IMG/VR virus record: IMGVR_UViG_3300035670_000340
Location: 1 to 48,054 of that record
Direction: 5' to 3' (one strand)
Length of the DNA: 48,054 bases
Source of the DNA: a virus
Position numbers and translations under genes: made by a program. Below the pieces are notes generated by a model. The model searched no databases. It worked only from the letters and a program-made list of their open reading frames with translations, and had not been told where the DNA came from. Position 1 is the stretch's first letter, and each line of letters begins with the position of its first letter. Shown here one piece after another: positions 1,588 through 41,899 of this stretch.

Positions 1588-1845
1588 ATGGCAGAAAAAT
1601 CAGCACCGCGCAAAGTCGCAAAGCCCCGTCGACAACAGGACCGCCCGACGGTGTCGTTCCGTCTCGATCAATCCAAGCTGGGGGCACTGGACAAGAACGC
1701 TCGCCGGTTGCGGTGCACCCGCACCGATCTGATCGAAGCCGTGATCAACCGCTTTCTGGGCGAGCCGTTCACCAACGTCGCCGAATTGGACCGACATCTG
1801 AAGGGAGAGAAACCCGATGACCGACAACTCAACATCTTCGGTTGA
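1588..1845 (+). CDS. Ribbon-helix-helix-like regulator with QLNIF C-terminus
   Basis: The 85-aa protein has a basic N-terminal tail, then RPTVSFRLDQSKLGALDK and TRTDLIEAVINRFL, a beta-helix-helix layout of small RHH DNA-binding proteins. ATG 1588 follows GGAG by 5 bases. It is the first gene of the rightward operon and sits beside the divergent promoters, as expected for an autoregulator. The last residues are RQLNIFG; QLNIF matches the bacterial beta-clamp-binding consensus and is one of the recurring IF tails in this genome. The RHH assignment is by pattern only. Confidence 0.65.
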   Translation: MAEKSAPRKVAKPRRQQDRPTVSFRLDQSKLGALDKNARRLRCTRTDLIEAVINRFLGEPFTNVAELDRHLKGEKPDDRQLNIFG

Positions 1846-2098
1846 CTGGCAACCAATCGAAACCGCGCCGCATGACGGCACTTGGATACTGTTGTGTGGC
1901 GGCAAATGCACCGGGGAAGGCCCAGACCCTTGGCAAGCCGCATGCGTTACTGCCTGTTGGGACGCTGAGAATTACTACGCACGGCGCGAAATGCGGGCGG
2001 GAAGTTGGGTGCGCTCTTACTGGGACGCTTGGCATCTCTGCCTCTATGACGCGCCGACGCACTGGGCGCCGCTGCCGAAAGGACCGGCCGATGTCTGA
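1817..2098 (+). CDS. DUF551-like phage protein
   Basis: The 93-aa product has the pattern WQPIETAPHDGTWILLC near residue 11 and PTHWAPLP near the end, which is characteristic of the DUF551 family common in phages. ATG 1817 lies inside the end of the previous gene (29-base overlap) and is preceded by GGGAG. Several Trp and Cys residues suggest a compact fold. The biochemical role of the family is unknown. Confidence 0.75.
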   Translation: MTDNSTSSVDWQPIETAPHDGTWILLCGGKCTGEGPDPWQAACVTACWDAENYYARREMRAGSWVRSYWDAWHLCLYDAPTHWAPLPKGPADV

Positions 2099-2345
2099 CC
2101 GTTTCGACGAGATCCGGTCGGAAAACCCCGATCTGGCGATCAATCTGTACGCGATGACGCCCGGCGGCGACGTGACCCTGGAAGTCATCGAGTCCGACGT
2201 TAACAACGACGGGCAGTCCATCACGTACACTTGGACGGCGCCGACAGCAGCGGAAGTTATGGCGCTAGCCTTTCCGGCTGACCCGGAGCCCGACGCCGAC
2301 GTCGACGCGCCGCCCGAACCGCAACCGACAAGCATCTTCGACTGA
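2091..2345 (+). CDS. Small acidic protein ending in SIFD
   Basis: The 84-aa protein starts at ATG 2091 and overlaps the previous stop by 8 bases. It is strongly acidic: the C-terminal third is Asp/Glu/Pro-rich (DPEPDADVDAPPEPQP) and looks disordered, ending in TSIFD. An acidic flexible tail followed by a hydrophobic-Phe terminus recalls SSB C-terminal tails. The globular part (residues 1-60) is not recognised. Confidence 0.65.
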   Translation: MSDRFDEIRSENPDLAINLYAMTPGGDVTLEVIESDVNNDGQSITYTWTAPTAAEVMALAFPADPEPDADVDAPPEPQPTSIFD

Positions 2346-2360
2346 TCGGAGACAACCGAC

Positions 2361-2600
2361 ATGAACTCCAGAACCAATACCCTTTTGTTATTCACACTCG
2401 CCGCGAGCGGAGCCATCGCCGGGCTGGCCGGCGGCTATTTGATCGATACGTGGCCCAACCGCGGAGCGCGTATCGAGGCCGAGACGATGACCGGCCATTT
2501 GTACATCGCCGGCACGGGCGCCGATTGCCGCGCCGCCTGGGCTGCGGCTAGAGCCGAGCCTGGCACACGCCGGGTCATCTGCGTTCAGGGAGACGAGTGA
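2361..2600 (+). CDS. Small membrane or secreted protein of unknown function
   Basis: The 79-aa product has an N-terminal hydrophobic segment (residues 8-28, LLLFTLAASGAIAGLAGGYL) that would act as a membrane anchor or uncleaved signal. Two Cys residues in the remaining 50 aa could pair in the periplasm. GGAG lies 11 bases upstream of ATG 2361. The stop TGA overlaps the next ATG. The function is unknown. Confidence 0.6.
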   Translation: MNSRTNTLLLFTLAASGAIAGLAGGYLIDTWPNRGARIEAETMTGHLYIAGTGADCRAAWAAARAEPGTRRVICVQGDE

Positions 2601-2854
2601 TGCCCTACCCCGCTCTGATCTATCGGGCTGACAACGCCCCGCCGCCGCGCCCCAGAAATCGCCGCGCAACCCCGCGCGGGGCGCGCATTCTGGCCCGGAT
2701 CGAAATGCTGGGCGTGACGATGGAAAGCGTCGCCCGCCGATCAGGTTTCTCCTGTAGCGCGATCTATCCTGCTTTGTCGAGCGAACACCCGGACACGTTC
2801 TTGCTGGAATGTGTCGAGCAAGCACTCGATCTGCCGAAATGGAAGGGAGGCTAG
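2600..2854 (+). CDS. XRE/Cro-like helix-turn-helix protein
   Basis: The 84-aa protein has a basic N-terminal tail and then RILARIEMLGVTMESVARR-SGFSCSAIYPAL, which fits a lambda-repressor-type helix-turn-helix (about residues 30-75). It lacks a C-terminal peptidase or dimerisation domain, so it would be Cro-like in size. ATG 2600 overlaps the previous TGA; a GTG three bases earlier is possible. It is a candidate lysis-lysogeny regulator because no longer cI-like gene is visible in the window. Confidence 0.6.
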   Translation: MPYPALIYRADNAPPPRPRNRRATPRGARILARIEMLGVTMESVARRSGFSCSAIYPALSSEHPDTFLLECVEQALDLPKWKGG

Positions 2855-2855
2855 A

Positions 2856-3191
2856 ATGGAAATGAAAAGCAACGTATGGCCCAACGGATGCGACCACACC
2901 GCCCCCGCCGCGCTACGTTATTTGGCGGAAAACAGACGCCCTATTGGCGGAGAGGACATGTTTAACGCTGCGCGCTTACTCCAAATAGCCGACGAATTAG
3001 AGCTAGCCGTAGCGGAAAGCCAAAAACCTCGCGAGCGCTCACGTTCTAGCTCGTCAACTACCGAATTGGTTGAAGCTTTAGAGGTCGTATCATACTACCT
3101 ATCGCGTCAAACAACGGGCCAAGGCATAAAGCGCCTTGTCGACGATGCGCTATCCGCCTACCGCGCGAGCAAGGAGCCTGCTCATGATTGA
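2856..3191 (+). CDS. Unknown protein from a locally AT-rich segment
   Basis: The 111-aa product starts at ATG 2856 behind a strong GGGAGG. It contains two amphipathic helical stretches (MFNAARLLQIADELELAVAE and TTELVEALEVVSYYLSRQ) separated by a Ser-rich linker. Codons are clearly less GC-rich than those of the neighbours (many TTA, TTT and CTA), suggesting recent acquisition. The family is not recognised. Confidence 0.65.
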   Translation: MEMKSNVWPNGCDHTAPAALRYLAENRRPIGGEDMFNAARLLQIADELELAVAESQKPRERSRSSSSTTELVEALEVVSYYLSRQTTGQGIKRLVDDALSAYRASKEPAHD

Positions 3192-3483
3192 CGACCCCTA
3201 CGACTACCTGGCTGGGGCCATCGCCGCGCATTGGGGCGAGCGCTGCCCGGACTACGAGCCCCAGTGCGCCTGCTGCGCGGCTTGGGCGCAGTACGACGCG
3301 CTGAAAGTCGATGGCCTGAACCACGCAATCAAGTTCGTCACGGATAGGCGCGACGATTATCTGGAGGAACACGGTAACTACGACCCTGAAACCGGGTTGA
3401 CAGAATGCGCACCAGCTGGGGAAGAGTACGTCTCTGAACTGGAAGAGATCATGGAGGGGCTGGAAGCCCTGCGCGCCAAATGA
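3184..3483 (+). CDS. Unknown acidic protein with Cys cluster
   Basis: The 99-aa product starts at ATG 3184 with AGGAG seven bases upstream and overlaps the previous stop. A CPDYEPQCACCAAW segment (residues 19-32) contains four Cys that could bind zinc. The rest is acidic and helical (EEYVSELEEIMEGLEAL). The stop overlaps the next start as ATGA. The function is unknown. Confidence 0.6.
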   Translation: MIDDPYDYLAGAIAAHWGERCPDYEPQCACCAAWAQYDALKVDGLNHAIKFVTDRRDDYLEEHGNYDPETGLTECAPAGEEYVSELEEIMEGLEALRAK

Positions 3484-3815
3484 CCCCGCGCGAACTGTCT
3501 GTCGTCATCCTGAAGCAAGTCGCCGCCAAGCACGGCACCACGCTGGCGGATCTGCACAAGGGCGCCAGATGGCCCGAGCTATGCCAAGCGCGGTGGGAAG
3601 CATTCTACCGGCTACGCACTGAACGCCGCATGACGCTGAAGCAGATCGGCGAGCTGCTGGGGTACGATCATGCCACGGTGCACTATGGCGTCTCTCGGCA
3701 CGCCGAACTCGCCGGCATCGCAGCGCTGAAAGACCGGGCCGACTACACGGTCCAGAAGCGCGCCAAGGCCCGCCAACGTTATCACGAGCGCGCCGCGGCG
3801 GAACGGGCTGGCTAG
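3480..3815 (+). CDS. DnaA domain IV-like DNA-binding protein
   Basis: The 111-aa protein resembles only the C-terminal DNA-binding domain of DnaA. Residues 50-74 read RMTLKQIGELLGYDHATVHYGVSRH, matching the DnaA signature in which the D-H-[AST]-T-V-x-[YH] segment contacts the DnaA box. No ATPase domain is present. In phages such stand-alone domains may bind origin-like boxes or regulate host DnaA; here the primase-helicase and an iteron cluster lie about 4 kb downstream. The start overlaps the previous stop (ATGA). Confidence 0.75.
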   Translation: MTPRELSVVILKQVAAKHGTTLADLHKGARWPELCQARWEAFYRLRTERRMTLKQIGELLGYDHATVHYGVSRHAELAGIAALKDRADYTVQKRAKARQRYHERAAAERAG

Positions 3816-3840
3816 ATCGTCGCATTTGTGCGATGAAATA

Positions 3841-3866
3841 GAACGGCGGCCGTTAAGCCGCCGTTC
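3841..3866 (+). terminator. Perfect 10-bp hairpin, possible terminator or processing site
   Basis: GAACGGCGGC (3841-3850) and GCCGCCGTTC (3857-3866) form a perfect stem with a 6-base loop. There is no T-run, so it may be a weak terminator or an mRNA stabiliser between the DnaA-like gene and the methyltransferase gene. Confidence 0.45.
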
Positions 3867-3914
3867 CGGTCCAACCGACAAGTGAGACCAAGCAACGCCA
3901 CTGGGAGACTGAGC

Positions 3915-4916
3915 GTGCCTGACATTTCTACCGCATTCGCGGGGTTGACACAACCCCTTGCGGCTACAACACCCCCTTCTATCGACATCCGCGAAGGCGA
4001 CTGCCGCGACGTTCTAAAGACGCTGCCCAGTTCATCGGTCAATTGCATCGTGACGAGCCCGCCTTACTTCGGGCTACGCGACTACGGCGTTGACAGGCAG
4101 ATGGGCTTGGAGCCGTCGCCGGACGAGTTCGCCGCAGCACTGGTCGGCGTTCTGCACGAGGCGCGGCGCGTGCTGAGAGATGACGGAACGCTTTGGCTGA
4201 ACCTTGGCGATAGCTATGCCGGCGGCAACGCGACAGGAAAATGGCGTGAAGGCAGTGCGCGCGCAGATGGCGATGTGCGCGACGATGGGCATAGTCGACG
4301 CAACCGGAACGGCATCGGATCTGTCGATGGCTGCAAGCCCAAAGACCTGATCGGCATCCCATGGCGCGTTGCCTTTGCGCTGCAAGCCGACGGCTGGTAT
4401 TTGCGGCAAGATATCATCTGGCACAAACCGAACCCGATGCCGGAAAGCGTGCGCGACCGATGCACCAAGGCGCACGAGTACATCTTTTTGCTGAGCAAGT
4501 CGGAGCGGTACTACTTCGACAGCGAGGCGATGAAGGAGCCAATTGCAGACCCGAGCCGGGTAGGTGAACGCACACAAGTCAACTACGCCGACGAAAGCAA
4601 GCTGGGTAGAGCGGAAATCGACCGTCATGTTGTGACCAGAAAAGCAACCCGCAACCGCCGCAGCGTCTGGACCGTTGCGACCCGCCCATTCAGCGGCGCC
4701 CACTTCGCTACGTTCCCGCCAGATCTGATCGAGCCGTGCATTCTGGCTGGCTGTCCGAAGGGCGGAACAGTGCTGGACCCGTTCTTCGGCGCCGGCACGA
4801 CGGGGCTGGTTGCGCAACGCCACGGCCGAAATGCCATCGGCATCGAACTGAACCCGGAGTACGTGCGCATCGCGAAGCGTCGTCTGGGTCTGCCGGAAAC
4901 GGACATCTTTTCATGA
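3915..4916 (+). CDS. Beta-class site-specific DNA methyltransferase
   Basis: The 333-aa protein has the N4-C/N6-A methyltransferase motif IV TSPPY (residues 47-51) near the N-terminus and the SAM-binding motif DPFFGAGTTG (288-297) near the C-terminus. This order defines the beta class. The central part is the target-recognition region. GTG 3915 is chosen because GGGAG stands 7 bases upstream; GTG 3882 is an in-frame alternative. No cognate endonuclease is adjacent, so it is an orphan enzyme, likely protecting phage DNA from host restriction. The protein ends in ETDIFS and its stop overlaps the next ATG. Confidence 0.9.
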   Translation: MPDISTAFAGLTQPLAATTPPSIDIREGDCRDVLKTLPSSSVNCIVTSPPYFGLRDYGVDRQMGLEPSPDEFAAALVGVLHEARRVLRDDGTLWLNLGDSYAGGNATGKWREGSARADGDVRDDGHSRRNRNGIGSVDGCKPKDLIGIPWRVAFALQADGWYLRQDIIWHKPNPMPESVRDRCTKAHEYIFLLSKSERYYFDSEAMKEPIADPSRVGERTQVNYADESKLGRAEIDRHVVTRKATRNRRSVWTVATRPFSGAHFATFPPDLIEPCILAGCPKGGTVLDPFFGAGTTGLVAQRHGRNAIGIELNPEYVRIAKRRLGLPETDIFS

Positions 4917-4923
4917 CAATAGC
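4893..4923 (+). repeat. 31-bp direct repeat at gene junction (copy 1)
   Basis: The 31 bases encode the last residues of the methyltransferase (PETDIFS), its stop, and the first codons of the next gene (MTIA). An identical 31-base sequence occurs at 5543-5573, exactly one gene downstream. Confidence 0.9.
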
Positions 4924-5566
4924 TGCTCTCTACGTCGAGACAAACGGCGCGTACTACGGGTTGGCCGGTGTTGACCCGTGGGATGAACACCGCGACGCCC
5001 GTAACTATACGGGCCCACATGCCGTGGTGGCGCACCCGCCATGCCAACGCTGGGGCAAGATGTGGTTCGGGCAACCGCTGACAGTAAAGCTGACTGGCGT
5101 ACGCAAGAAAAAAGGCGACGATGGCGGCTGTTTCGCTGCCGCGCTGGACGCAGTGCGTACATGGGGCGGCGTTCTGGAGCATCCGTGGCAGTCTCACGCG
5201 TGGCCGCATTTCGGGCTCGCCGTGCCGCCGCGATCCGGCGGGTGGGTGCGGGCTGACAACTGTGGTGGCTGGACCTGTTGCGTCGAGCAAGGCCGGTACG
5301 GGCACTACGCCAGAAAGCCAACCATGCTGTACGCGGTAAGGACACACCTGCCAGAACTGGACTGGGGCACCAGCGAGGCAAGGCTGGACCCGGCCGTTGT
5401 CGAGCGCATGGGCCTCAAGCGCGCCCGTCGATTGGGCGAAGTAGGCGCGCGAGGCGGCGGAACAGACAGCACACCCCGCATTCACACGCCACCACAGTTT
5501 CGCGAACTGCTAATCAGCATGGCGCGCTCCGTCGGCGGGCTACCGGAAACGGACATCTTTTCATGA
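4913..5566 (+). CDS. PPC-motif phage protein, possibly C5-methyltransferase-related
   Basis: The 217-aa protein has AHPPCQRWG (about residues 40-48) and GGVLEHPWQS (about 83-92). These recall motif IV (PPC) and motif VI (ENV) of cytosine-C5 methyltransferases, but there is no recognisable SAM-binding FxGxG. It may be a degenerate or divergent relative, or an unrelated conserved phage family. It ends in ETDIFS, as the preceding methyltransferase does. The gene is flanked by 31-bp direct repeats, so it looks like a single-gene cassette. Confidence 0.65.
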   Translation: MTIAALYVETNGAYYGLAGVDPWDEHRDARNYTGPHAVVAHPPCQRWGKMWFGQPLTVKLTGVRKKKGDDGGCFAAALDAVRTWGGVLEHPWQSHAWPHFGLAVPPRSGGWVRADNCGGWTCCVEQGRYGHYARKPTMLYAVRTHLPELDWGTSEARLDPAVVERMGLKRARRLGEVGARGGGTDSTPRIHTPPQFRELLISMARSVGGLPETDIFS

Positions 5567-5573
5567 CAATAGC
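5543..5573 (+). repeat. 31-bp direct repeat at gene junction (copy 2)
   Basis: This is identical to 4893-4923. Here it joins the end of the PPC-motif gene to the start of the primase-helicase gene. The unit length between copies is 650 bases. Confidence 0.9.
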
Positions 5574-7716
5574 CGTAGACTTTCTGCGCCAGTTCGATCC
5601 GACTGGCTGGCACAATCTCGTCGCCATAGCGCCCGACACGCGCGCCATCTGCGGCGTCACGATCCCGCCCGGCGAGTGGTCAAAGGCTGAAGCGTTCGTC
5701 GAGAAGTGGAACGGCAAACGCAATTTGTACTGGTCCGTCAACGAGCCTAAGCTAGACGCCCCCGACGCGAAATTAGGCGAGGCCGACATCGCGGCCATCC
5801 GCGCGGTCTACGCCGACGTGGACCCCAAGCCGGGCGATCTGGACGCGGCTCGGCAAGATATCCGCAACCGTGCGAAGCTCGCGTTGGGGAACGCGAAGCC
5901 CTCACTGGTGATCGACAGCGGCGGCGGCTTACAATTCTTTTGGACCGTGAATAAAACGCCGGTCGACGAGGCGGTGAAGCGAACAGCAAAACGCCAAGGC
6001 CGCGGCATTGCCCATCTGATGGACGGCGACGGCGTCTGCAACATCGACCGTATCATGCGCTTGCCGGGCACGGTCAACTTGCCCGACAAGGCCAAGCTGG
6101 CGAAAGGGCGGCGCGTCGCGACAGCAACCGTTCTCGACCAGCGCGACGAACGCTATCGGCTGGAAGATCTCGCCAAATTCTACAGGCCACTTGACGCCGA
6201 GGAAGGCGAGGACAAAGACGGCGAAATTGCCCAGTTGCAGCAGGCCATGCAGTCGTGGCGGCCAGAATTTTCCTGTCTGGACGAGGCGCCCGATACGCTG
6301 CGCGCCCGGTTCGCCGAGGCGATGGCCGCTGACGAGGGCTTGGCGCGGTTGTGGACGGGCGAGTGCGCGCCGGACGATACCAGCAACAGCGGCTGGCGTT
6401 TCGCGCTGGCAGAAGCGTTGAAGTCGATCGGCGGGTTCGGGCCAGAAGACTTCGCATCGATCCTGTACTGCTGGGATCGGCATGACCCGGAAAAGATCAC
6501 ACCGCGCACCATCGCTCGCGACTGGATCCGGGCGGATGATGGCGGGCGCGGACTGATCGGCGATCTGACCGGCGGCGTTCAAGAAACCGAACAACCCGCA
6601 TCGGGCAAGAAATTCCACTTCGAGAGCTTCGCCGACGTTGTTGCGGCCGACATTACCCAGACGCCCGCGTTGATCGACGGGCTGCTGGATCAAGGCGCGA
6701 TGAGCGTGGTGTACGGCGACAGCAACGCCGGCAAGACGTTCGTCGTGATGGACATGGCCTTTCACGTCGGCGCCGGGTTGCCGTACGCGGGAATGGACGT
6801 TGCGCAAGGGCTGGTGGTGTACGTGGCGGCAGAAGGCGGCCAGGGCATCAAGAAACGCGTCAAGGCGCTCCACAAGGCCTACCCGAGCGTTCAGCCTGAC
6901 TTCGTGCTGTTGGCCTCTCCAGTCGATTTGCGCAACCCCAAGGCCGACACTGCCCCATTGTGCGAGGCCGTGCGCGGGCTGGGGCGGCCGGTGGCGCTGA
7001 TGGTCATCGATACCCTGTCGCGTGCCATGGCGGGCGGCGACGAGAACTCGTCGGTCGATATGGGCGCGCTGGTGAAGCACTTCGACGTGATCCGCAAGGC
7101 GTGCGCTCCGGCCCATCTTCTGATCGTGCACCACACGGGCAAGGACAAGGCCCGTGGCGCCCGCGGGCATTCGCTGTTGCGGGCGGCCACCGACACGGAA
7201 ATCGAGGTCGCAGCGCCCGAACGCGGGGAGCGTGGCGAGAAAGGCTCGGGGGGCGTGTCGACCATCACCGTAACCAAGCAGCGCGACATGGACGGCGAAT
7301 GGACGCGGGCGTTCTCGTTGCGAGAATGGGTGCTGGGAGCCAAGCCGAACGGCAAACCGATCACCTCGTGCACCGTCGATTTGCTGACCGTGGGGGAAGC
7401 GCGGGCCGTGAAATCCATCCCCACGGCGACAGAAACGGACGTTCTGGCGGCCCTCGAAGTGGCCCAGTCAGAGGCCGGTGGCGGGCCCGTTTCGACCGTT
7501 GCGGTGGCTCTGCAATACGGCGGTAATACAGAGGCAAAAGCTGTTTCTGCAATACGCCAGCACCTGAGGAGCTTAGAGACAAAGTGTCTCGTTTTTAGGC
7601 CAAAATCGGGCCTTTGGGGTGTAAAAAATCCAATTTTACACTTTAGCCATACAACAGGGTCGGGTGTAGAGAGTGTAGAAAGTGTAGGAAAAATTGACGG
7701 TGGAATTTTCGCATAG
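5563..7716 (+). CDS. Primase-helicase (RepB/prim-pol-like plus RepA-like ATPase)
   Basis: The 717-aa protein combines an N-terminal primase-type region, with DVDPKPGDL, IDSGGGLQFFW and NIDRIMRLPGTVNLPDK motifs, and a C-terminal RecA-fold hexameric helicase. The helicase has Walker A GDSNAGKT (residues 385-392) and Walker B VALMVIDT (D483). It should unwind the phage origin and prime synthesis for the phage polymerase. ATG 5563 overlaps the upstream stop as ATGA. The last codons run into GTGTA iterons, so the VESVESV sequence is partly dictated by DNA repeats. The tail is DGGIFA. Confidence 0.88.
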   Translation: MTIAVDFLRQFDPTGWHNLVAIAPDTRAICGVTIPPGEWSKAEAFVEKWNGKRNLYWSVNEPKLDAPDAKLGEADIAAIRAVYADVDPKPGDLDAARQDIRNRAKLALGNAKPSLVIDSGGGLQFFWTVNKTPVDEAVKRTAKRQGRGIAHLMDGDGVCNIDRIMRLPGTVNLPDKAKLAKGRRVATATVLDQRDERYRLEDLAKFYRPLDAEEGEDKDGEIAQLQQAMQSWRPEFSCLDEAPDTLRARFAEAMAADEGLARLWTGECAPDDTSNSGWRFALAEALKSIGGFGPEDFASILYCWDRHDPEKITPRTIARDWIRADDGGRGLIGDLTGGVQETEQPASGKKFHFESFADVVAADITQTPALIDGLLDQGAMSVVYGDSNAGKTFVVMDMAFHVGAGLPYAGMDVAQGLVVYVAAEGGQGIKKRVKALHKAYPSVQPDFVLLASPVDLRNPKADTAPLCEAVRGLGRPVALMVIDTLSRAMAGGDENSSVDMGALVKHFDVIRKACAPAHLLIVHHTGKDKARGARGHSLLRAATDTEIEVAAPERGERGEKGSGGVSTITVTKQRDMDGEWTRAFSLREWVLGAKPNGKPITSCTVDLLTVGEARAVKSIPTATETDVLAALEVAQSEAGGGPVSTVAVALQYGGNTEAKAVSAIRQHLRSLETKCLVFRPKSGLWGVKNPILHFSHTTGSGVESVESVGKIDGGIFA

Positions 7717-7826
7717 ATATCAGAGGCTTACGGAAAAGTGTAAAAAGTGTAAAAAGTGTAAAATGTCATACGGTGAAGGGGTGTAAAGTGTAAGACCCCT
7801 ATATATAGGTCTTACACTTCCTACAC
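7619..7826. repeat. GTGTA iteron array, candidate replication origin
   Basis: GTGTA starts at 7664, 7673 and 7682 (9-bp period inside the primase-helicase gene) and again at 7738, 7747 and 7756 (9-bp period, GTGTAAAAA). Further copies start at 7619, 7781 and 7788. Inverted TACAC copies start at 7637, 7813 and 7822, the last two again 9 bp apart. The array surrounds a long palindrome and lies at the junction of convergent genes beside the primase-helicase gene. Together these suggest an origin or initiator-binding region. Confidence 0.6.
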
Positions 7827-9007: not shown

Positions 9008-9199
9008 TTATTTGCCTTCAGGCAGGTATTCCCAACCAAGGCGGGCTTTGGTCGCGATCCACTTGGCTTTCACGGCCTCGCTGGAGGCGTAGGCCGACCA
9101 GTGCGAGCCGTCGGGCAGGCGCCAGTGAACATGCAGGCCGGCGGCTCCGCGTTGCGCCATGGCGCGGGCGATCAGGGCAGATGAGGCGGGGCTGAGCAT
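9008..9199 (-). CDS. Small protein of unknown function (63 aa)
   Basis: The product reads MLSPASSALIARAMAQRG, then HVHWRLPDGSHWSAYASSEA, which suggests a small beta-hairpin plus helix fold. The gene has the conserved leader TGACAACACGGAGAAAA before its start. The function is unknown. Confidence 0.6.
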   Translation of the reverse strand: MLSPASSALIARAMAQRGAAGLHVHWRLPDGSHWSAYASSEAVKAKWIATKARLGWEYLPEGK

Positions 9200-9203
9200 G
9201 GCG

Positions 9204-9230
9204 TTTTCTCCGTGTTGTCAGGGCCTTGTG
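9204..9230 (-). promoter_or_regulatory. Repeated leader with RBS (copy 1)
   Basis: On the minus strand CAAGGCCCTGACAACACGG is followed by AGAAAA directly before the 9008-9199 gene. It matches the leaders at 9520-9547 and 9740-9767. Confidence 0.75.
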
Positions 9231-9248
9231 CGTCGGTAGGAAGGGCTG

Positions 9249-9515
9249 TTAGACGCCTTTTCTTGTGGCGAACAAGCTGCCAAGAGGCATGCCGCGTTTG
9301 TCGGTCATGTCGAGGCGCAGCGGCGTCGATGGCGCGTATTTGTCGGCCCACCACGAACCGCGTTGGATAGCGGGCCAAAGTTGTGCCGGAAGTTTTTCAC
9401 AAAGCGCGGAGAAGTCGGGGATGTACATGAGGCCGCGCGTCGCGTTGGCGGGAACTTCGAATTTGCGGCATAGGTTTCCGTTGCGGTGTAGCTCCACTTC
9501 GAACCATATGGTCAT
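9249..9515 (-). CDS. Unknown protein (88 aa)
   Basis: The product begins MTIWFEVELHRNGNLCRKF and has alternating hydrophobic residues indicating beta strands, then an amphipathic helix (PDFSALCEKLPAQLWPAI). ATG 9515 follows the conserved GGAGAAAA leader. No family is recognised. Confidence 0.6.
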   Translation of the reverse strand: MTIWFEVELHRNGNLCRKFEVPANATRGLMYIPDFSALCEKLPAQLWPAIQRGSWWADKYAPSTPLRLDMTDKRGMPLGSLFATRKGV

Positions 9516-9519
9516 GGTA

Positions 9520-9547
9520 TTTTCTCCGTGTTGTCAACGCCTTCGTG
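9520..9547 (-). promoter_or_regulatory. Repeated leader with RBS (copy 2)
   Basis: On the minus strand CACGAAGGCGTTGACAACAC is followed by GGAGAAAA. It differs from copy 3 at only two or three positions. Confidence 0.75.
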
Positions 9548-9588
9548 TTGCGAAAGCAAGGGGTATTTTATTCAGTGCGCGTAGCGTT

Positions 9589-9735
9589 TCAGCGCTGTTG
9601 GACCCACGTATAGGCGTCATCGTTACTCTCGAACGCCATGTACCCGCCACAGACCTTGATGACACGGCACGCCCAAGGCGCGAGTTTACGGGCGGTCTTG
9701 GCGCTCTTGCACCCTCCGAGAAAAGTCTTGCGCAT
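9589..9735 (-). CDS. Small basic protein (48 aa)
   Basis: Reading the minus strand from ATG 9735 gives 48 aa: a basic half (MRKTFLGGCKSAKTARK), then APWACRVIKVCGGYMAF and an acidic, aromatic end. Three Cys residues are present. It is the first gene of the leftward cluster, directly behind the conserved leader and about 34 bases from the predicted transcription start. The function is unknown. Confidence 0.6.
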   Translation of the reverse strand: MRKTFLGGCKSAKTARKLAPWACRVIKVCGGYMAFESNDDAYTWVQQR

Positions 9736-9739
9736 TTTG

Positions 9740-9767
9740 TTTTCTCCGTGTTGTCAGTGCCTTCGTG
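9740..9767 (-). promoter_or_regulatory. Repeated leader with RBS (copy 3)
   Basis: On the minus strand CACGAAGGCACTGACAACAC is followed by GGAGAAAA before the 48-aa gene. It begins at the predicted transcription start of the cluster. Confidence 0.75.
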
Positions 9768-9775
9768 TTGCTTTT

Positions 9776-9906: not shown

Positions 9907-9942
9907 GTAGCGTAGGCTACACTTTGTAGGATAGGCTAAATG
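9887..9942 (+). repeat. Three 19-bp tandem repeats before the small terminase gene
   Basis: TGTAGCGTA starts at 9887 and 9906 and TGTAGGATA at 9925, an exact 19-bp period reaching into the ATG at 9940. The middle unit contains the palindrome TGTAGC-GTAG-GCTACA (9906-9921). These may be small-terminase recognition (pac-like) sites or an autoregulatory operator. Confidence 0.75.
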
Positions 9943-10389
9943 CCCTTAAAGAACGGACACTTAACGGCTGGCGAACGTGGCGTGGCGCGTGAAATGGCGT
10001 TGCACGGGTCGCCTGAGGCGGCGGCGCTGAAAACCGGGCTGTCGGCTAGCGGCGTGAAGGCGGTTTTGCGTCGTCCGGCGGTGCATGCGGAGATCGCCAG
10101 GCAGCAGCAGGAGCTACTTTTCCGCGATATCCTGCCGCTCGCCGTCGCCGCGCATAAGCGGCTGTTGACTGATCCGCGCACGCCGGCCGGCGCCGTCGCG
10201 CAGGCCGTAAAGCTGGCCTATGACAGGACTTTGGGCAGCGAGGAAGGCGCGCGCAGCAAAGAGCCGCACGAGATGACACCAGAGGAGCTGGCTGAGGCAA
10301 TCGCCACGTTGAGCCGCATTGCCAGCGAGCGCGCAAAGCCGGTCATCGAGATCGGCGCCGAGGTCGACGACAGCTCGATCTTCGACTGA
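9940..10389 (+). CDS. Putative terminase small subunit
   Basis: The 149-aa protein begins with a helix-turn-helix region (residues 8-45, ending AALKTGLSASGVKAVLRR), followed by a helical oligomerisation-like stretch and an acidic C-terminus ending in DDSSIFD. Size, N-terminal HTH and position upstream of the virion genes fit a small terminase, which recognises packaging sites and recruits the large subunit. The large subunit lies 4 kb downstream, an unusual separation. A transcriptional regulator is the main alternative. Confidence 0.6.
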   Translation: MPLKNGHLTAGERGVAREMALHGSPEAAALKTGLSASGVKAVLRRPAVHAEIARQQQELLFRDILPLAVAAHKRLLTDPRTPAGAVAQAVKLAYDRTLGSEEGARSKEPHEMTPEELAEAIATLSRIASERAKPVIEIGAEVDDSSIFD

Positions 10390-10469: not shown

Positions 10470-10616
10470 TGCTCCAAGGGCGGCGCGGCATGACGCTTGC
10501 GGCGGGTTGATCGGCCGTCGAGCCCCGGCCCACCCCTGGCAGGCGGTCGGGCGCGCGGGCGGAAACGGCGCCGGGCGCCGCTACCAAAATTCCGGCCGAA
10601 AAGGAAACGGACCGTC

Positions 10617-10645
10617 TTGTCCGCCCCGCCGATAAGCGCTAAATG
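10617..10645 (+). promoter_or_regulatory. Promoter P1 of the leader RNA
   Basis: TTGTCC (10617-10622), a 17-base spacer and TAAATG (10640-10645). The -35 and most of the spacer lie in a 22-bp block repeated exactly at 10856-10877. Initiation is expected near 10652. Confidence 0.6.
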
Positions 10646-10651
10646 TGTTGG

Positions 10652-10845: not shown

Positions 10846-10860
10846 CTTTGACTGGCCGTC

Positions 10861-10889
10861 TTGTCCGCCCCGCCGATCCGGGCTATACG
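10861..10889 (+). promoter_or_regulatory. Promoter P2, twin of P1
   Basis: TTGTCC (10861-10866), 17 bases and TATACG (10884-10889). The -35 and spacer start are identical to P1. Initiation is expected at about 10896, which is the A of the ATG of the next gene, so the mRNA may be leaderless. Confidence 0.6.
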
Positions 10890-10895
10890 TTGCCC

Positions 10896-14179: not shown

Positions 14180-14530
14180 ATGCAATTGCCCCGCGCCAAG
14201 AACGAGGTCAATATCAATACCGTCATCACGATCGTCGGGTTTTTGCTGACCATTGCGGGTGGTGGCGTCGCATGGGGCACGGCGCAAGCCAACATCGCCA
14301 CGCTGACGACCGGGCAAGCCGAGCTGGGCACACGGATGACGACGGCCGAAGGCGTCACCAGCCGGTTGGTAAATCTGGAGTATCGCGTGACCGTCGCCGA
14401 ACAAGCCAATACCAATCTGGCGAGAGCGGTCGACGAGCTACGCGCCGCCGTGGCAAACCAGAGCGCTGATATTAGGGTCGTTCGGGAAATCGTGACCCGC
14501 ATGGACCGGCAGTTGGCCGATGGAAAGTAA
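14180..14530 (+). CDS. Membrane-anchored coiled-coil protein, possible holin
   Basis: The product (116 aa from ATG 14180, behind GAGGAG; GTG 14165 is an alternative) has one N-terminal membrane helix (TVITIVGFLLTIAGGGVAWG) and a long predicted coiled coil. The layout resembles small phage membrane proteins in lysis cassettes (DUF2730-like). No other clear holin is present, so this or the C-terminal helix of the endolysin may provide the function. It overlaps the large terminase start by 11 bases. Confidence 0.6.
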   Translation: MQLPRAKNEVNINTVITIVGFLLTIAGGGVAWGTAQANIATLTTGQAELGTRMTTAEGVTSRLVNLEYRVTVAEQANTNLARAVDELRAAVANQSADIRVVREIVTRMDRQLADGK

Positions 14531-22429: not shown

Positions 22430-22984
22430 ATGCAGACGGCAAATGTCCTCTTGGCCCTTGCGGGCAAGCGAGGCGAGACGGTTCCCAAGTACGGCGTCAC
22501 CCCGGCCGAAGTCGCGGTTCTCCGCTTCCTGCATGGCGAGGATGCCGTCTACGACGTTGATGTGCGCGACGACGAAGTCCAGCGCACCAATCGGCAGGAG
22601 ATCGAGCGTCTGCGGCAGACCTACAGCTACCGCAACGGCGACAAGGTCGTGTCGCCCGCTATCAGTGCGCTGTTCCCCGGCGTCGGCGCCCAGGTGCCGC
22701 AGAAGTTCGCCGATCTGGAGTTGCCTGAAGAGCTGTTCATCGTCGCGACGCGCAAGGTCGATCCGTTGGACCATGACGGTGATGGCCGCAAGGGCGGGTC
22801 CAAGCCGCTCGAAGAGCGCGCCGTGGCTGACATGACCGTTTCGCAGATGCGCGTCTACGCCAGCAAGTTTGCCGATCTGGACTTGACGGGCCTGACCCGA
22901 AAAGAGGATATTCGGGAAGCGATCGAGCTGCACGAAGCCAACATGGCGGAAGCCGCGCCGAAGTCGGGCAGCGTCTTCGAGTAA
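22430..22984 (+). CDS. Unknown virion-region protein ending in SVFE
   Basis: The 184-aa product starts MQTANVLLALAGKRGETVPK behind AAGGAG. It contains an acidic DHDGDG segment and a C-terminal helical part (TVSQMRVYASKFADLDLTGL) that resembles a small HeH/SAP-like domain. The place between decoration and adaptor genes suggests a head-completion role. It ends in SGSVFE, the only structural-block protein with the recurring hydrophobic-Phe tail. Confidence 0.6.
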   Translation: MQTANVLLALAGKRGETVPKYGVTPAEVAVLRFLHGEDAVYDVDVRDDEVQRTNRQEIERLRQTYSYRNGDKVVSPAISALFPGVGAQVPQKFADLELPEELFIVATRKVDPLDHDGDGRKGGSKPLEERAVADMTVSQMRVYASKFADLDLTGLTRKEDIREAIELHEANMAEAAPKSGSVFE

Positions 22985-35586: not shown

Positions 35587-35769
35587 ATGCGTCGTACGCG
35601 CCGATCTGAGAACCAGCGTGCCGAGCAGCGGGGCAAACTGAGCCAGGAATTGTGGGGCGCTCGGCCTCTGGCTGGCTGGACGCGCTCAGCTGAGAATAAG
35701 CGTCTGGCGCGACGGTTGGAGCGCCGAAGAGCGGACCGTCTTGCGGCGAGCTTGAGCGCCGAAGAATGA
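35587..35769 (+). CDS. Small, highly basic protein (60 aa)
   Basis: About a third of the residues are Arg or Lys (MRRTRRSENQRAEQRGKLSQ, RRLERRRADRLAASL). ATG 35587 has GGAGG 6 bases upstream. The composition suggests nucleic-acid binding. It overlaps the RusA gene start as ATGA. Confidence 0.55.
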   Translation: MRRTRRSENQRAEQRGKLSQELWGARPLAGWTRSAENKRLARRLERRRADRLAASLSAEE

Positions 35770-36197
35770 TCCATATCGTTCTCGCCGGTCAAGCCATCGG
35801 CAAGCAGCGCGTTCGCTTCTCCCGAGCCTCGGGGCGGGCCTACACGCCCGAAAAGACCGTATCTTATGAGGGCCGGCTGGCTTACGCGGCGCAACAGGCC
35901 ATGAACGGCCGGACGCCCCTGGAGGGGCCAGTAGCCGTGGAAGCGACGATCTACGTCGCCATTCCGGCCTCGAAGCCGAAGAAATGGAAAGCGGCGGCAC
36001 TGGCCGGCGCGATCCGCCCCACGTCGAAGCCCGATATCGATAACGTCATAAAATCAAGTTTCGATGGTTTGAACCTGGTGGTCTGGGTCGACGACAGTCA
36101 AGTCGTCGAATTGAAGACTGCAAAGTGGTACAGCGATGCGCCCCGGCTGGAAATGTGGGTGCGCGAAGTTCAACCGACGGAAGGGATATTCTCATGA
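35766..36197 (+). CDS. rusA: RusA-family Holliday junction resolvase
   Basis: The 143-aa protein has the RusA signature KPDIDN (residues 88-93), followed by an acidic pair (VWVDD, 107-110) and Lys117, which form the metal-dependent active site. It cleaves four-way junctions or branched DNA arising during replication and recombination, often before packaging. It ends in TEGIFS, and the stop overlaps the next start (TCATGA). Confidence 0.92.
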   Translation: MIHIVLAGQAIGKQRVRFSRASGRAYTPEKTVSYEGRLAYAAQQAMNGRTPLEGPVAVEATIYVAIPASKPKKWKAAALAGAIRPTSKPDIDNVIKSSFDGLNLVVWVDDSQVVELKTAKWYSDAPRLEMWVREVQPTEGIFS

Positions 36198-36716: not shown

Positions 36717-36719
36717 CCC

Positions 36720-36743
36720 TGGCAGACGGCTGAAAGTCTGCCA
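36720..36743 (+). other. 5' mRNA hairpin
   Basis: TGGCAGAC (36720-36727) and GTCTGCCA (36736-36743) form an 8-bp stem with an 8-base loop at the predicted transcript 5' end. It may stabilise the SNF2-helicase mRNA. Confidence 0.6.
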
Positions 36744-36797
36744 CTGTTCCGCACGCTTTCCTGTCTGTTCGCGCTTTTCGCTCTTTAGGAACACACC

Positions 36798-38162: not shown

Positions 38163-38174
38163 GAGACTAGGAAG

Positions 38175-38864
38175 ATGAGCGTTGAGATCAAGATTTACGG
38201 CGAAACGGCGAAGGATGCGCTGGATGAGCTTTCTGGACTGGCGTCCGGGATGCGCCCCACCGGCTTCCGCCCGGAGCTAGCCGCGCCGTACGGCACCGGG
38301 TCGAACATGACGGTTGACGAGGCCTATGCGGCGGCCGCCGCGCAAGGCGCTGAGCCCTCAGAGCAGCCCGCAGCGCGGGGCCACACGGTTGCACAGAATT
38401 CTACCCGCAAGCGTGGCGAACCGTCGCCCGGCAAGAAGCGGCGCACCGCGGCGGAAGTTGCCGAGGACGAAGCTGCCGAGGCCGCCGAGAATGCGGCGAA
38501 GCAGAACATCTCGACCGGCGAAGCGCGCGTCGATCCGGAGAACCCGGAAGAGGCTGCGGATAGCGAAGCAGACGCGGCCCAGGACGCCGCCGATGAAGCC
38601 GCCGAGGTCGAAGCGCATCGCGACCCGGAGAAGCCGCTAACGATCGACGACGTGAAGGCTGCGGTCATGGCTTACGCCGAGAAGTACGGCATGCCGGCTG
38701 CCCAGGCTGACGGCCCGCGCATCTTCGTCGAAGCGCTGGGCGTCCCGCCGAAGGGTGAAGAGTTCTGGAAGTTCTCCATTCTGCCGGTTGACGACCAGGA
38801 GAAGATCCGGAAAGTCATTTCGATCTGGCAGCGCGCCACGACCGAAAACCCATTCAAGCACTGA
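38175..38864 (+). CDS. Unknown acidic replication-module protein (229 aa)
   Basis: The protein has a disordered, Ala/Glu-rich middle (residues 50-150, such as DEAAEAAENAAKQNISTGEA) with a basic patch (KRGEPSPGKKRRTAAE) and a folded C-terminal domain (TIDDVKAAVMAYAEKYGMPA). Position just before the nuclease and SSB genes suggests a recombination accessory. The family is not recognised. Confidence 0.65.
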   Translation: MSVEIKIYGETAKDALDELSGLASGMRPTGFRPELAAPYGTGSNMTVDEAYAAAAAQGAEPSEQPAARGHTVAQNSTRKRGEPSPGKKRRTAAEVAEDEAAEAAENAAKQNISTGEARVDPENPEEAADSEADAAQDAADEAAEVEAHRDPEKPLTIDDVKAAVMAYAEKYGMPAAQADGPRIFVEALGVPPKGEEFWKFSILPVDDQEKIRKVISIWQRATTENPFKH

Positions 38865-38879
38865 CCAAGGGAGGTCGAA

Positions 38880-39062
38880 TTGGCCCACGAAAAACGCAAC
38901 CTGAAGGAATTTATAACGGGCGATACGTGTTTTCGCGTCACCCGCAAGGGAGAGTTGGAAACTGACGACGAAGTGCTGGTGACGGGCGGCGACATGACTG
39001 CGTTCATAGCTTGGCTCGCCGCGGAAGTCGAAGCGTTGAAGTCCGGCAAGTGCTATGACTGA
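38880..39062 (+). CDS. Small protein with TTG start (60 aa)
   Basis: TTG 38880 follows GGGAGG at good spacing, and no better start exists. The product has charged residues and a beta-hairpin-like CFRVTRKGELETDDEVLV followed by a helix (TAFIAWLAAEVEALKSG). It overlaps the nuclease gene start by 8 bases. The function is unknown. Confidence 0.6.
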   Translation: MAHEKRNLKEFITGDTCFRVTRKGELETDDEVLVTGGDMTAFIAWLAAEVEALKSGKCYD

Positions 39063-40347
39063 CCACGCCGCACGAGACCACGCCCAGTGGTCTGCTAGCG
39101 CAACGGATCGCAACTGGCACTGCCCCGGTGCGCTGGCGTTGACCATGGATCTGCCCGAGACGACGAATGATGCGGCGGACTGGGGCACATGTTGCCATCA
39201 GATCGCGGAGAAGTGTCTGCGCGACCGCAAGGACGCCGCCGAGTTCATCGGCACAACCGAGAAAGGAAAGAAATACGAGTTCGAGGTAGACGACGAGATG
39301 GCCGACACGGCCCAGATGTACGTCGACTACTGCCGAAGCCGGATCGATGCATATAAGGCGGAAACGGGCAAGAACGCGCTCGTTTTCGTGGAAGAGAAGT
39401 TCTCGCTGGCCGCGCTCAATCCTCCGTTCGAGGCCGGGGGTACGGGCGACTGCGTGATGATCTTCCCGGACTGGCAGACGCTGGAAGTCGTCGATCTGAA
39501 GGGTGGGCGGGGTGTCGTGGTGGAAGCCAAGGGCAACCCGCAGGGCCGGACTTACGGCTTGGGCGCGGTGCTCAAGCACACCGGCCATACCATCCGCAAG
39601 ATCATCGTCACGATCGTTCAGCCGCGAGCCGGGCACCCTGACGGGCGCATCCGTTCCGACGTGTTCGACATGGCCGATCTGGTGGAGTGGACGACGGACC
39701 TGATGACCGCCATGCGGCGTTCAGCCGAAGCCCTAGAATGGCATAAGGCTGGCGCCAAGCCGTCGGTCGAATGGGGCCGCGACTACTTGGCAGCCGGCAG
39801 CCACTGCAAGTTCTGCAAAGCGGCGGGCTTCTGCCCGGCGCTGGAACAGAAGGCAACCGATGCGGCCGGCATCTGGTTCGACGATCTGGACAAGCCGCGC
39901 ATCTCCAACTCTCCCGACGCAATGTCGCCGGAGAAGTTGGCTCAGACGCTCGACATGCTGGACATGATCGATGACTGGTGCAACGCGGTGCGCGCTCATG
40001 CTCACCGCGAAGCCGAGGCCGGGACGGTCATTCCCGGCTACCAGTTGGTCGAGAAGATCGGCAACCGGGCATGGAAGGCCGACGTGACGACTGACGCCGT
40101 GGCCGCGCTGCTGACCGGCGCGGGCAAGGACGCCAAGCTGGCCTACGCGGCGCCCAAGGCCGCCTCTCCGGCCCAGGTCGAGAAGGCCTTGGGCGCGAAG
40201 AACAAGGGCCTCTTGGCCGACTTGGTCGAGCGGCCCTCCCGTGGAACCAATCTGGTATCCACGGCATCGACAACCCGGCCGGCAGTCACGCCGCTCGTTC
40301 AACAGCATCTTACCGATCTGGATGCGAAACCCAACCTGTTCGACTGA
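39055..40347 (+). CDS. DUF2800 Cas4/RecB-like exonuclease
   Basis: The 430-aa protein belongs to the DUF2800/PD-(D/E)XK group. It has an N-terminal HCPGALAL (Cys23) and a C-terminal cluster C251-x2-C254-x5-C260 (HCKFCKAAGFCPA). These four Cys can hold an iron-sulfur cluster as in Cas4/AddB nucleases. The nuclease core includes GTGDCVMI and VVDLKGG (Asp and Lys of the D-x-K motif). With the following SSB it forms a likely recombination pair. The tail is KPNLFD. Confidence 0.85.
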   Translation: MTDHAARDHAQWSASATDRNWHCPGALALTMDLPETTNDAADWGTCCHQIAEKCLRDRKDAAEFIGTTEKGKKYEFEVDDEMADTAQMYVDYCRSRIDAYKAETGKNALVFVEEKFSLAALNPPFEAGGTGDCVMIFPDWQTLEVVDLKGGRGVVVEAKGNPQGRTYGLGAVLKHTGHTIRKIIVTIVQPRAGHPDGRIRSDVFDMADLVEWTTDLMTAMRRSAEALEWHKAGAKPSVEWGRDYLAAGSHCKFCKAAGFCPALEQKATDAAGIWFDDLDKPRISNSPDAMSPEKLAQTLDMLDMIDDWCNAVRAHAHREAEAGTVIPGYQLVEKIGNRAWKADVTTDAVAALLTGAGKDAKLAYAAPKAASPAQVEKALGAKNKGLLADLVERPSRGTNLVSTASTTRPAVTPLVQQHLTDLDAKPNLFD

Positions 40348-40358
40348 AGGAACTGAAA

Positions 40359-40991
40359 ATGGCACGTTCTGAAGACATCAAGACCCCGAAGGCTATCATC
40401 GCGTTTGCGCAGGCCGCATTCGAGCCCCAGGAGCGCAAGAATGGCAAGAAGCAGTACGCTCCGTCGCTGCTGTTCAAGAAGGGCGCCGATCTGTCGGCGC
40501 TCAAGAAGATCGCCGCTGATGCGGCCATCGCCGAATGGGGCGACAAGGCCATCCAGTGGATCAAGGACGAAGTGATCAAGTCGCCGTTTCTCGATGGCGA
40601 CGGTAAGCAGGCCGTGTCGAAGAAGACCGGCGAGCGGCATCCCGGTTTCGCCGGCCATACGTTCATTCGTTGCGTATCGGGCGAAGAGTACCCGCCTAAG
40701 ATCTTCGGCCGCAACGCCGTGTCGCGCATCACCGACAAGAACGACATGCCGTCGGGCTCCGAGGTCTACGCCGTGGTGAACGCGTTCACCTGGGAGAATG
40801 ACGAGAACGGCAAGGGCATCTCGTTCGGCGTGTCGATCATCCAGCTCGTCAAAAAGGCCGAAGGCGACGAAGTGCTGGGCGGTGGCGGCGGTGGCCCGGA
40901 CCCGGACAAGTTTCTGGAAAAGCTGGCCGACGAGGGCGACGCCCCCGCCGAGACCAAGAGCGGTGCCGGGGCTTCCGGGCTGTTCGGTTGA
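40359..40991 (+). CDS. DUF2815 single-stranded DNA-binding protein
   Basis: The 210-aa protein matches the DUF2815 family, whose Enc34 phage member is an OB-fold SSB. Visible marks are APSLLFKKGADLSALKK, GHTFIRCVSGEEYPPKI and SGSEVYAVVNAFTW. A Gly-rich linker (VLGGGGGGPDPD) leads to an acidic tail ending in ASGLFG, as expected for an SSB that recruits partners through its C-terminus. It follows the nuclease gene by 11 bases. Confidence 0.88.
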   Translation: MARSEDIKTPKAIIAFAQAAFEPQERKNGKKQYAPSLLFKKGADLSALKKIAADAAIAEWGDKAIQWIKDEVIKSPFLDGDGKQAVSKKTGERHPGFAGHTFIRCVSGEEYPPKIFGRNAVSRITDKNDMPSGSEVYAVVNAFTWENDENGKGISFGVSIIQLVKKAEGDEVLGGGGGGPDPDKFLEKLADEGDAPAETKSGAGASGLFG

Positions 40992-40998
40992 ACGAAAC

Positions 40999-41020
40999 GC
41001 GGCGGTCTTCGGGCCGCCGC
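40999..41020 (+). other. Very stable cUUCGg hairpin
   Basis: GCGGCGGTC and GGCCGCCGC (one G-T wobble) close a TTCG tetraloop, which as RNA is the exceptionally stable C(UUCG)G. It lies directly after the SSB stop with no T-run, so it probably blocks 3' exonucleases and sets the SSB mRNA level. Confidence 0.75.
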
Positions 41021-41040
41021 ATAACCCCTAGGAGACTGGA

Positions 41041-41418
41041 ATGAATAAGACTCAACAGCAGTATGCGACATCTCGCGTTGATGGACTTCTTGCGAAGAAA
41101 GAAGTCGCACTGAAGACGAAGTTCACCAAGGAAGCGCAAGTAATTTCGCCTGAAGAGCGCGCGGCGCCGATCCGTTCCGGAAAGGTAAAACTGCGTAGCG
41201 ACGTTACGCAGATCCACGTCTACACGGACGTTTCTGACGTTTTCGACTTCTCCAAGTACGCATGGCCGAGAACACTGAACGCAGATGCGTTCGAGAAAGC
41301 ATTTCGCCCTCTTGCGGACGAAGCGCAGTCGCTGAAAGACACAATCATGCTCGGCGACAGCACGGAAGCGTTGGCGGCTATAGAAAAGTTCGCCGAGAAA
41401 TGCGGGGCCTCGGCATGA
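41041..41418 (+). CDS. Unknown protein (125 aa)
   Basis: The product begins MNKTQQQYATSRVDGLLAKK, has a basic N-terminal half, a central VTQIHVYTDVSDVFDFSKY strand region and a helical C-terminus. AGGAG precedes ATG 41041 and the stop overlaps the GapR start. I do not recognise it; the neighbours suggest a DNA-associated role. Confidence 0.65.
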   Translation: MNKTQQQYATSRVDGLLAKKEVALKTKFTKEAQVISPEERAAPIRSGKVKLRSDVTQIHVYTDVSDVFDFSKYAWPRTLNADAFEKAFRPLADEAQSLKDTIMLGDSTEALAAIEKFAEKCGASA

Positions 41419-41687
41419 CCAATCCTGACCTGAAGGGCGGCGACAATGCCCAGACTGTCGCGGCGGCCGAATTGCGCGCGTTCGTCGAGCGCCGTGAGCG
41501 GCTGGAAGCCGACAAGGCCGAAATCGGCGAAGACATCAAGGAACTGAACGCCGAAGTGAAGGGCCGCGGCTACGACATGAAGATGTTCAATGAGATGGTC
41601 AAGCTGAGGAAGATGGACGCCGACGAGCGCGCGGAGCGTGAAGCACTACGTGATCTATACGCCTCTAGCTTGGGCATCTTCGGATGA
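41415..41687 (+). CDS. gapR: GapR-family (DUF2312) DNA-binding protein
   Basis: The 90-aa protein matches DUF2312: AELRAFVERRERLEADKAEI, then GEDIKELNAEVKGRGYD and KLRKMDADERAEREALRDLY. Alphaproteobacterial GapR encircles overtwisted DNA ahead of forks and helps relieve supercoils. A phage copy could support fork movement or compete with host GapR. It ends in LGIFG, a tail beyond the conserved domain. ATGA overlaps occur on both sides. Confidence 0.9.
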   Translation: MTNPDLKGGDNAQTVAAAELRAFVERRERLEADKAEIGEDIKELNAEVKGRGYDMKMFNEMVKLRKMDADERAEREALRDLYASSLGIFG

Positions 41688-41899
41688 CGCTCGAAACCGC
41701 AATTCGGGAGGCCGCCGCAAGCGGCCTTTCCGAGCTGGACGTAAACGAAAGCCTGGGCGGCTGGCAAGCCATCGCAAAATTCCACGGCGCGTTGACCGGG
41801 CCGTGGTGCGTCGGCGTGGACCCCGATCCGGTCGAAGCGATCCGGAAAGCGCTGGCAAAGCGCGCCGCCCAAACAACCGACAAGGACATCTTCTCATGA
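41684..41899 (+). CDS. Small protein ending in DIFS (71 aa)
   Basis: The product begins MTLETAIREAAASGLSELDV and includes WQAIAKFHGALTGPWCVGVD, then a helix (PVEAIRKALAKRA) and the tail TTDKDIFS. The stop overlaps the next start as TCATGA, the same junction type as after rusA and the methyltransferase. The function is unknown. Confidence 0.65.
   Translation: MTLETAIREAAASGLSELDVNESLGGWQAIAKFHGALTGPWCVGVDPDPVEAIRKALAKRAAQTTDKDIFS

Follow-up and report, generated by a model that had tools for sequence, protein, structure and literature searches.

A shared C-terminal tetrapeptide on DNA-acting proteins of a phage family and a candidate phage-encoded domain that may read it

Why should more than ten unrelated proteins of one phage end in nearly the same four residues? 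The question is raised by a 48,054-bp virus record in IMG/VR (IMGVR_UViG_3300035670_000340, referred to here over its whole length as the window), in which 13 genes end in [S/D/G/N]-[I/L/V]-F-[D/S/G/A/E]-COOH (Table 1). The record has a 127-bp terminal direct repeat and is therefore probably a complete phage. Near relatives (L411 and L413) are integrated in the genomes of Bosea lathyri and Rhodopseudomonas pseudopalustris, which suggests hosts among the Alphaproteobacteria (Hyphomicrobiales). The comparisons below make it nearly certain that these proteins do share a tail, and that it is conserved, confined to the exact C-terminus and re-spelled concertedly across proteins.

Genes in the window were called with a codon-based script, which yielded 56 genes, and every C-terminus was tabulated; the gene ending at 5566 was left out of this set owing to its overlap. 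Scored as [ILVM]F[DSGAENT] at the C-terminus, the tail was found on 12 of the 56 genes, against 0.15-0.18 expected from internal tripeptide frequencies (p ~1e-19). Of the 416 open reading frames (ORFs) with 40 aa or more on either strand, 14 end in this way, namely the 13 genes and one doubtful ORF at 342-890. A first-pass annotation, made from the DNA alone, had listed 13 such tails and all are present at the stops it gave. It had put the number due to chance at two or three, having counted any penultimate Phe, and the full tail class is far rarer. The annotation was right that the carriers are mainly DNA-transaction proteins. It was also right that their families are unrelated, although the DIFS tails at 4916 and 5566 do not count as two independent cases, the tail lying within a 37-bp direct repeat. 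Pfam matches support its methyltransferase (an N6/N4 methylase), primase-helicase, RusA, nuclease, single-stranded DNA-binding protein (SSB) and GapR; for its small terminase there is a sub-threshold Terminase_2 match in an orthologue, which leaves that assignment less secure.

The tail is also conserved in relatives. A profile of the SSB returned 42 loci, and the complete records behind 26 of these were taken; the relative set comprises 25 tailed phages with 1,469 genes. Searched against genome contigs, the SSB profile found no relative, and a search with a profile of the family A DNA polymerase (PolA) succeeded. With the coordinates deposited in GenBank, 12 of 69 genes of the Rhizobium phage RHph_N65 and 11 of 75 genes of EBPR siphovirus 2 are tailed, so that these tails are independent of our own gene calling. 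Across four phages the tails read GIFS, GVFG, DIFG and GVFG on RusA, GLFG, GLFG, GLFE and SLFGNQ on SSB, and GIFG, GIFG, DIFG and GVFA on GapR, and methylase orthologues end in DVFA and NVFG. Orthologues thus retain the tail while the adjoining sequence diverges, the point on which the first-pass annotation had let its own case depend. In 14 orthologues of the primase-helicase, with 14-40% identity to the window protein, the tail Phe (F716) is among only 9 invariant residues, others of which include the first Met and the Walker-type G390/K391.

The position of the motif is equally constrained. In the relative set, [ILVM]F with Phe at -2 was observed in 220 proteins, compared to 3-19 at each other offset from -1 to -15, tying the motif to the C-terminus itself. 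Every counted tail has Phe at -2, and [ILVM]F occupies the last position in only 5 of the 1,469 proteins. Position -4 favors G, S, N or D and position -1 favors D or G, and more weakly S or A; the residues ahead of the tail are variable, with Pro, Gly and acidic residues favored. The 244 tails use 130 different sequences for their last three codons, which supports, as first proposed, selection on the peptide.

The tail is specific as well. No member is tailed in the portal and major capsid families or in most other structural families, nor in the family of the protein encoded at 38175-38864 or in PolA; SNF2 has one. Outside the cassette, GapR homologues are untailed (0/81, the usual end being ALGM), as are the RusA genes of unrelated phages in loci without the cassette, and control loci gave only 24 tails in 4,779 genes even with a wider pattern. 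EBPR siphovirus 2 and phage G011 are tailed though they lack the family's portal or capsid genes, so the tag, as judged from these genomes, travels with the replication cassette. In a further set of phages (L194-L200, L188, L191, L046 and L049) the SSB ends in GLFG plus one residue, GapR ends in LGLFD and RusA is untailed. These apparently transitional phages may reflect a stepwise spread of the tag.

Within a given phage, the residue at -3 is mostly alike across unrelated proteins, being I, V, L or A according to lineage: V in 11/11 tails of EBPR siphovirus 2, L in 9/9 of G032 and I in 8/9 of G010 (over 248 tails, I 65, V 81, L 71 and A 17). This bias is well above proteome composition in I-, V- and L-type genomes and is not significant against it in A-type genomes, as Ala is common. 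SSB keeps L at this position nearly always.

The DUF2800 nuclease, gp2.5-like SSB and polymerase form the published duf2800-gp2.5-polA module (PMC8093625), and the three genes are encoded close together in the window. The DUF2800 tail is rare in the alphaproteobacterial family (1/34) and general in the beta- and gammaproteobacterial relatives, where the tips of SSB and DUF2800 are matched within a phage (TADDLV/SVEDLV, DAESLI/SAESLI, QVEDFA/ASEDFA and EADIFS/SDDIFA). Over 110 phages, the last three residues of the two proteins gave a mean BLOSUM62 score of 3.25, against -1.00 ± 0.39 with partners shuffled. Windows shifted 9 and 12 residues upstream also exceeded the shuffles, by much less, and composition and relatedness therefore contribute to the match. 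Prophages of Xenorhabdus include both an F-spelling and an L-spelling, with SSB, nuclease and polymerase 76-98% identical, and in their SSB the last three residues are the only columns that fully separate the two spellings. The published description of the module mentions neither matched C-terminal tips nor the adaptor domain discussed below, both of which are new here as observations, and no earlier description of the tag was found in the open-access literature.

Our best explanation is that the tail serves as an address tag at the C-terminus, made up of a disordered stretch rich in Pro, Gly and acidic residues and a final [G/S/D/N]-[I/V/L/A]-F-[D/G/A/S/E]-COOH. It would bring SSB, primase-helicase, nucleases, methylases, GapR and further DNA enzymes to a single reader encoded by the phage. 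This reader would be the three-helix C-terminal domain of the 38175-38864 protein (phrog_408-like), which would probably act as an adaptor with a hydrophobic groove taking the side chains at -3 and -2. SSB and the DUF2800 nuclease would be the widespread clients in proteobacterial module phages, and in the alphaproteobacterial family many more proteins would have acquired the tag. A docking function for the tail appears likely and a phage-encoded reader probable. The choice of the 38175-type domain as that reader is tentative, falling somewhat short of an even chance, and the explanation as a whole is offered as not quite an even prospect. Of the two hubs suggested by the first-pass annotation, the host sliding clamp or a phage partner, the second is the better reading; a shared partner remains the natural interpretation.

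Several lines of evidence favor the 38175-type domain. Its family is present in 25/25 tailed phages. In most module phages the gene directly upstream of DUF2800 encodes a disordered linker followed by a C-terminal domain of ~55-60 residues, which is predicted to be helical in 38175-38864, the window's positional counterpart. Profile comparison gave 98% between the beta- and gammaproteobacterial versions of the domain, 98% between those of Firmicutes and betaproteobacterial phages and 87.6% between the alpha- and betaproteobacterial ones. The Xenorhabdus protein (4.1e-7) and the EBPR siphovirus 2 relative (3.7e-4) match phrog_408, and the window protein itself had no phrog match. The domain was found in 191 of 220 loci with both SSB and DUF2800 and in 2 of 150 loci with neither. 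Distant phages L424, L356 and L453, which share tips and gave no match to the 38175 profile, have a homologous-looking domain at the corresponding position upstream of DUF2800. Within alphaproteobacterial phages, conservation of the family is highest at QDAADEAAE (residues ~134-145 of the window protein), in a predicted helix outside the C-terminal domain.

The candidate domain also covaries with the spelling. In 24 gammaproteobacterial sequences, five hydrophobic columns of the domain split the F- from the L-spelling without exception, as does a sixth, near the end, covered by few sequences. When only Xenorhabdus phages are compared, the domain has 47 variable columns, 11 of which separate the spellings, compared to 10 of 699 pooled over other proteins; counted within the same protein, separating columns are 11 of 37 in the C-terminal domain and 5 of 67 in the remainder. 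The spelling changes once on the tree of the domain (support 96) and twice on the SSB, PolA and DUF2800 trees. Located physically between the domain and the tips, the body of DUF2800 rejects the F-type phages as one clade (p 0.032), making linkage alone an unlikely cause of the match.

Other observations weigh against this assignment. A single recombination history could also have produced the match between domain and spelling, and the gammaproteobacterial contrast may be a single event, in which case the separating columns are not independent evidence. In a partial Mantel analysis of 90 phages, tip distance followed PolA (r 0.15-0.29, p 0.003) and was unlinked to the candidate domain. The contrast between A- and V-spelling in alphaproteobacterial phages gave no signal in the 38175 family, and no protein stood out. 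L172 and L177 have the 38175 family and few tails, and L392 and L395 have tips with no detectable reader although the upstream sequence is present (in L431, L439, L442, L471 and L485 the contig does not include the region upstream of DUF2800). Homology between the alpha- and gammaproteobacterial versions of the domain depends on moderate profile matches together with the shared match to phrog_408, the direct comparison of the two being weak (15.6%). A fold search with the AlphaFold2 model of the window protein returned no significant PDB match and, in BFVD, only its own relative.

The Mantel result is part of the case for a T7-like family A polymerase as reader, which on our analysis is unlikely and yet the strongest of the alternatives. 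PolA belongs to the core cassette and is never tailed, and the SSB is of the T7 gp2.5 type (PMC5686142); in T7 the gp2.5 tail is implicated in polymerase contacts, and C-terminal tails of the helicase gp4 dock on basic patches of the polymerase gp5 (PMC12593628). The window resembles T7 in combining an SSB of the same fold, a helicase-primase with C-terminal tails and a family A polymerase. The T7 tails are described as long and acidic, whereas here a four-residue tag is found on 9-13 proteins including nucleases, methylases, GapR and the terminase candidate. Against PolA as reader, only 4 of its 230 variable columns in the Xenorhabdus phages distinguish the spellings, no excess over other proteins, relatives of PolA also occur in phages with very different tips, and the Mantel signal may simply reflect that the longest protein tracks phylogeny best.

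Less probable again is a reader supplied by the host, for which the beta sliding clamp is the most plausible choice, or else another host replication protein. The carriers are DNA-transaction proteins, as clamp clients are, and one short motif on many DNA enzymes that converge on one hub is also the logic of the clamp motif and of the PIP box of PCNA. The tail [D/S/G/N][I/L]F overlaps the 3′ half of the clamp motif QL[SD]LF, and QLNIF at 1845 resembles the published consensus Q-phi-x-[L/M]-[F/L], in which the Gln is not strictly required for clamp binding (PMC11139829). Nevertheless, Gln shows no enrichment at -6 (0.9x background, 9 of 248 tails), entire lineages have V or A where the clamp motif needs L or M, and the tail keeps an exact C-terminal register with internal positions unused. 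Concerted shifts of spelling would be unexpected for a highly conserved host pocket, and the two spellings within the one host genus Xenorhabdus disfavor a host reader unless its pocket tolerates both.

Alternatively, the tails might bind SSB or compete for its single-stranded DNA groove, so that enzymes with the tag would be brought to DNA coated with SSB or exchanged there, a scenario that we consider improbable. SSB is present in every tailed phage, and in the Enc34 SSB crystal the C-terminus enters the groove of a neighbor. In the Xenorhabdus phages, however, no column in the SSB body follows the spelling, and AlphaFold2 leaves the tail of the SSB undocked, which is weak evidence. In the predicted structure residues 202-210 have pLDDT <50 and the body ~95; profile comparison of the same protein matched solved structures of the Enc34/DUF2815 family, 4jg2 (7.4e-22) and 5odj (4.1e-7). 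Docking of the SSB tail in cis was rejected, the tail being left disordered. The SSB C-terminal tip (SSB-Ct) of E. coli is likewise a short disordered tip that recruits partners, and SSB is a carrier here too; the present system differs in that many unrelated enzymes carry the tip, Phe is penultimate and not terminal, and the spelling varies by lineage.

Degrons and some cargo tags typically sit at a fixed position at the C-terminus, so the tail could be a stability signal (a degron, or protection from host proteases) or a signal for capsid loading. We regard this as very unlikely. A general stability signal does not explain why the tail is confined to DNA-acting proteins, including the product of 22430-22984 amid structural genes. 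In addition, phages that lack the capsid and portal genes of this family still have tails, and the spellings of SSB and nuclease are matched within one host genus. Chance, descent of the gene ends from a common ancestor and artefacts at the DNA level, such as start signals that overlap or repeats, are already refuted as general explanations by the 130 distinct 9-mers, the enrichment at a single offset and the unrelatedness of tailed families whose homologues elsewhere are untailed, even though the pair at 4916 and 5566 is indeed a DNA-level copy of a gene junction.

Two other candidate readers were rejected. Capsid and portal proteins are missing as families from two tailed phages, EBPR siphovirus 2 and G011. 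The Xenorhabdus gene p210 distinguishes the spellings (3 phages versus 3) but is absent from tailed L484, L429 and L437.

The copied junction also indicates how a tag might spread. The gene at 4913-5566 sits between the two copies of the 37-bp repeat, and since the repeat spans the tail, the stop and the first codons of the next gene, duplication of a gene junction is suggested as one route by which an inserted gene could gain the tag. Most other tails are better explained by convergence, as judged from their differing codons. Three other sets of repeats were observed in the window. Tandem AAAGTGTAA units at 7735-7793 directly follow the primase-helicase gene. At 9197-9771, beside small leftward genes, there are three 39-nt repeats around TTTTCTCCGTGTTGTCA, spaced 316 and 220, which are possible promoter or operator elements. 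A 40-nt direct repeat (10607-10646 and 10851-10890) is 83% identical.

The coordinates of the carriers, the candidate and rival readers and the junction repeat are given in Table 1. Several true starts, e.g. 2091, 4913, 5563 and 41400, probably lie inside the longest ORFs. Further tailed families in relatives are an Rv2179c-like exonuclease, HNH nucleases and a C5 methylase. The DNA methylase of EBPR siphovirus 2 (L013:24310-26694) contains Hint and LAGLIDADG domains, probably an intein, and keeps the tail NVFG. In the window, the large terminase ORF (14520-17237) encodes 905 aa, whereas that of RHph_N65 has 556. It has LAGLIDADG/Hom_end matches at residues 328-380, ahead of the terminase domain match, and probably holds an intein with a homing endonuclease.

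Table 1. Tailed genes, candidate readers and junction repeat in the window; tailed counts are given per family, with denominators that take in untailed outgroup phages.
Feature	Coordinates	Strand	C-terminal tail	Tailed in family	Support and remarks
RHH/CopG-family protein	1588..1845	+	QLNIFG	8/9	Pfam RHH_1
Uncharacterised protein, ~84 aa	2091..2345	+	SIFD	18/21 end [ILVM]F[small/acidic]	21/21 end F[small/acidic]
N6/N4 DNA methylase	4101..4916	+	DIFS		PF01555 1.1e-54; start uncertain, ORF from 3882
Direct repeat, 37 bp, copy 1	4887..4923	+			Tail, stop and next start
Uncharacterised protein, 217 aa (phrog_12600)	4913..5566	+	DIFS		Tail copied with gene junction
Direct repeat, 37 bp, copy 2	5537..5573	+			95% identical; 31-bp core exact, none expected by chance
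Primase-helicase (AAA_25)	5563..7716	+	GIFA	20/32	Pfam
Probable small terminase subunit	9940..10389	+	SIFD	18/23	Weak sub-threshold Terminase_2 match in orthologue
Endonuclease VII-like protein	22430..22984	+	SVFE	15/23	Weak phrog_3281; amid structural genes
Uncharacterised protein, 81 aa	35330..35575	+	SIFD	2/14
RusA resolvase	35766..36197	+	GIFS	18/20	PF05866 1e-33
Candidate reader, linker protein with small helical C-terminal domain	38175..38864	+	untailed		Between SNF2 helicase and DUF2800
DUF2800/PDDEXK (Cas4-like) nuclease	39145..40347	+	NLFD		Pfam
Enc34/T7 gp2.5-type SSB	40359..40991	+	GLFG	24/34	PF10991 3.8e-16
GapR-like DNA-binding protein	41400..41687	+	GIFG	21/28	PF10073
Uncharacterised protein, 71 aa	41684..41899	+	DIFS	17/19	19/19 end F[small/acidic]
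Family A DNA polymerase, rival reader	43143..45452	+	untailed	0/28

Taken across phages, these observations raise the prospect of an address code, in which a phrog_408-like domain would read the matched tips of SSB and nuclease and, in alphaproteobacterial phages, those of a dozen further DNA enzymes, with the lineage spelling kept in lock-step between reader and clients; we advance this wider form more cautiously than the explanation given above. If true, one tetrapeptide would mark phage proteins that work together, and the last four residues of a product could place an uncharacterised gene in DNA metabolism. The phrog_408-like domain, widespread in phages and of unknown function, would also gain a function open to testing, and the natural switch of dialect in closely related Xenorhabdus phages makes the co-evolution of a short linear motif and its reader directly testable. 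Such a code would explain how replication and recombination hubs assemble without long shared interfaces in otherwise dissimilar phages.

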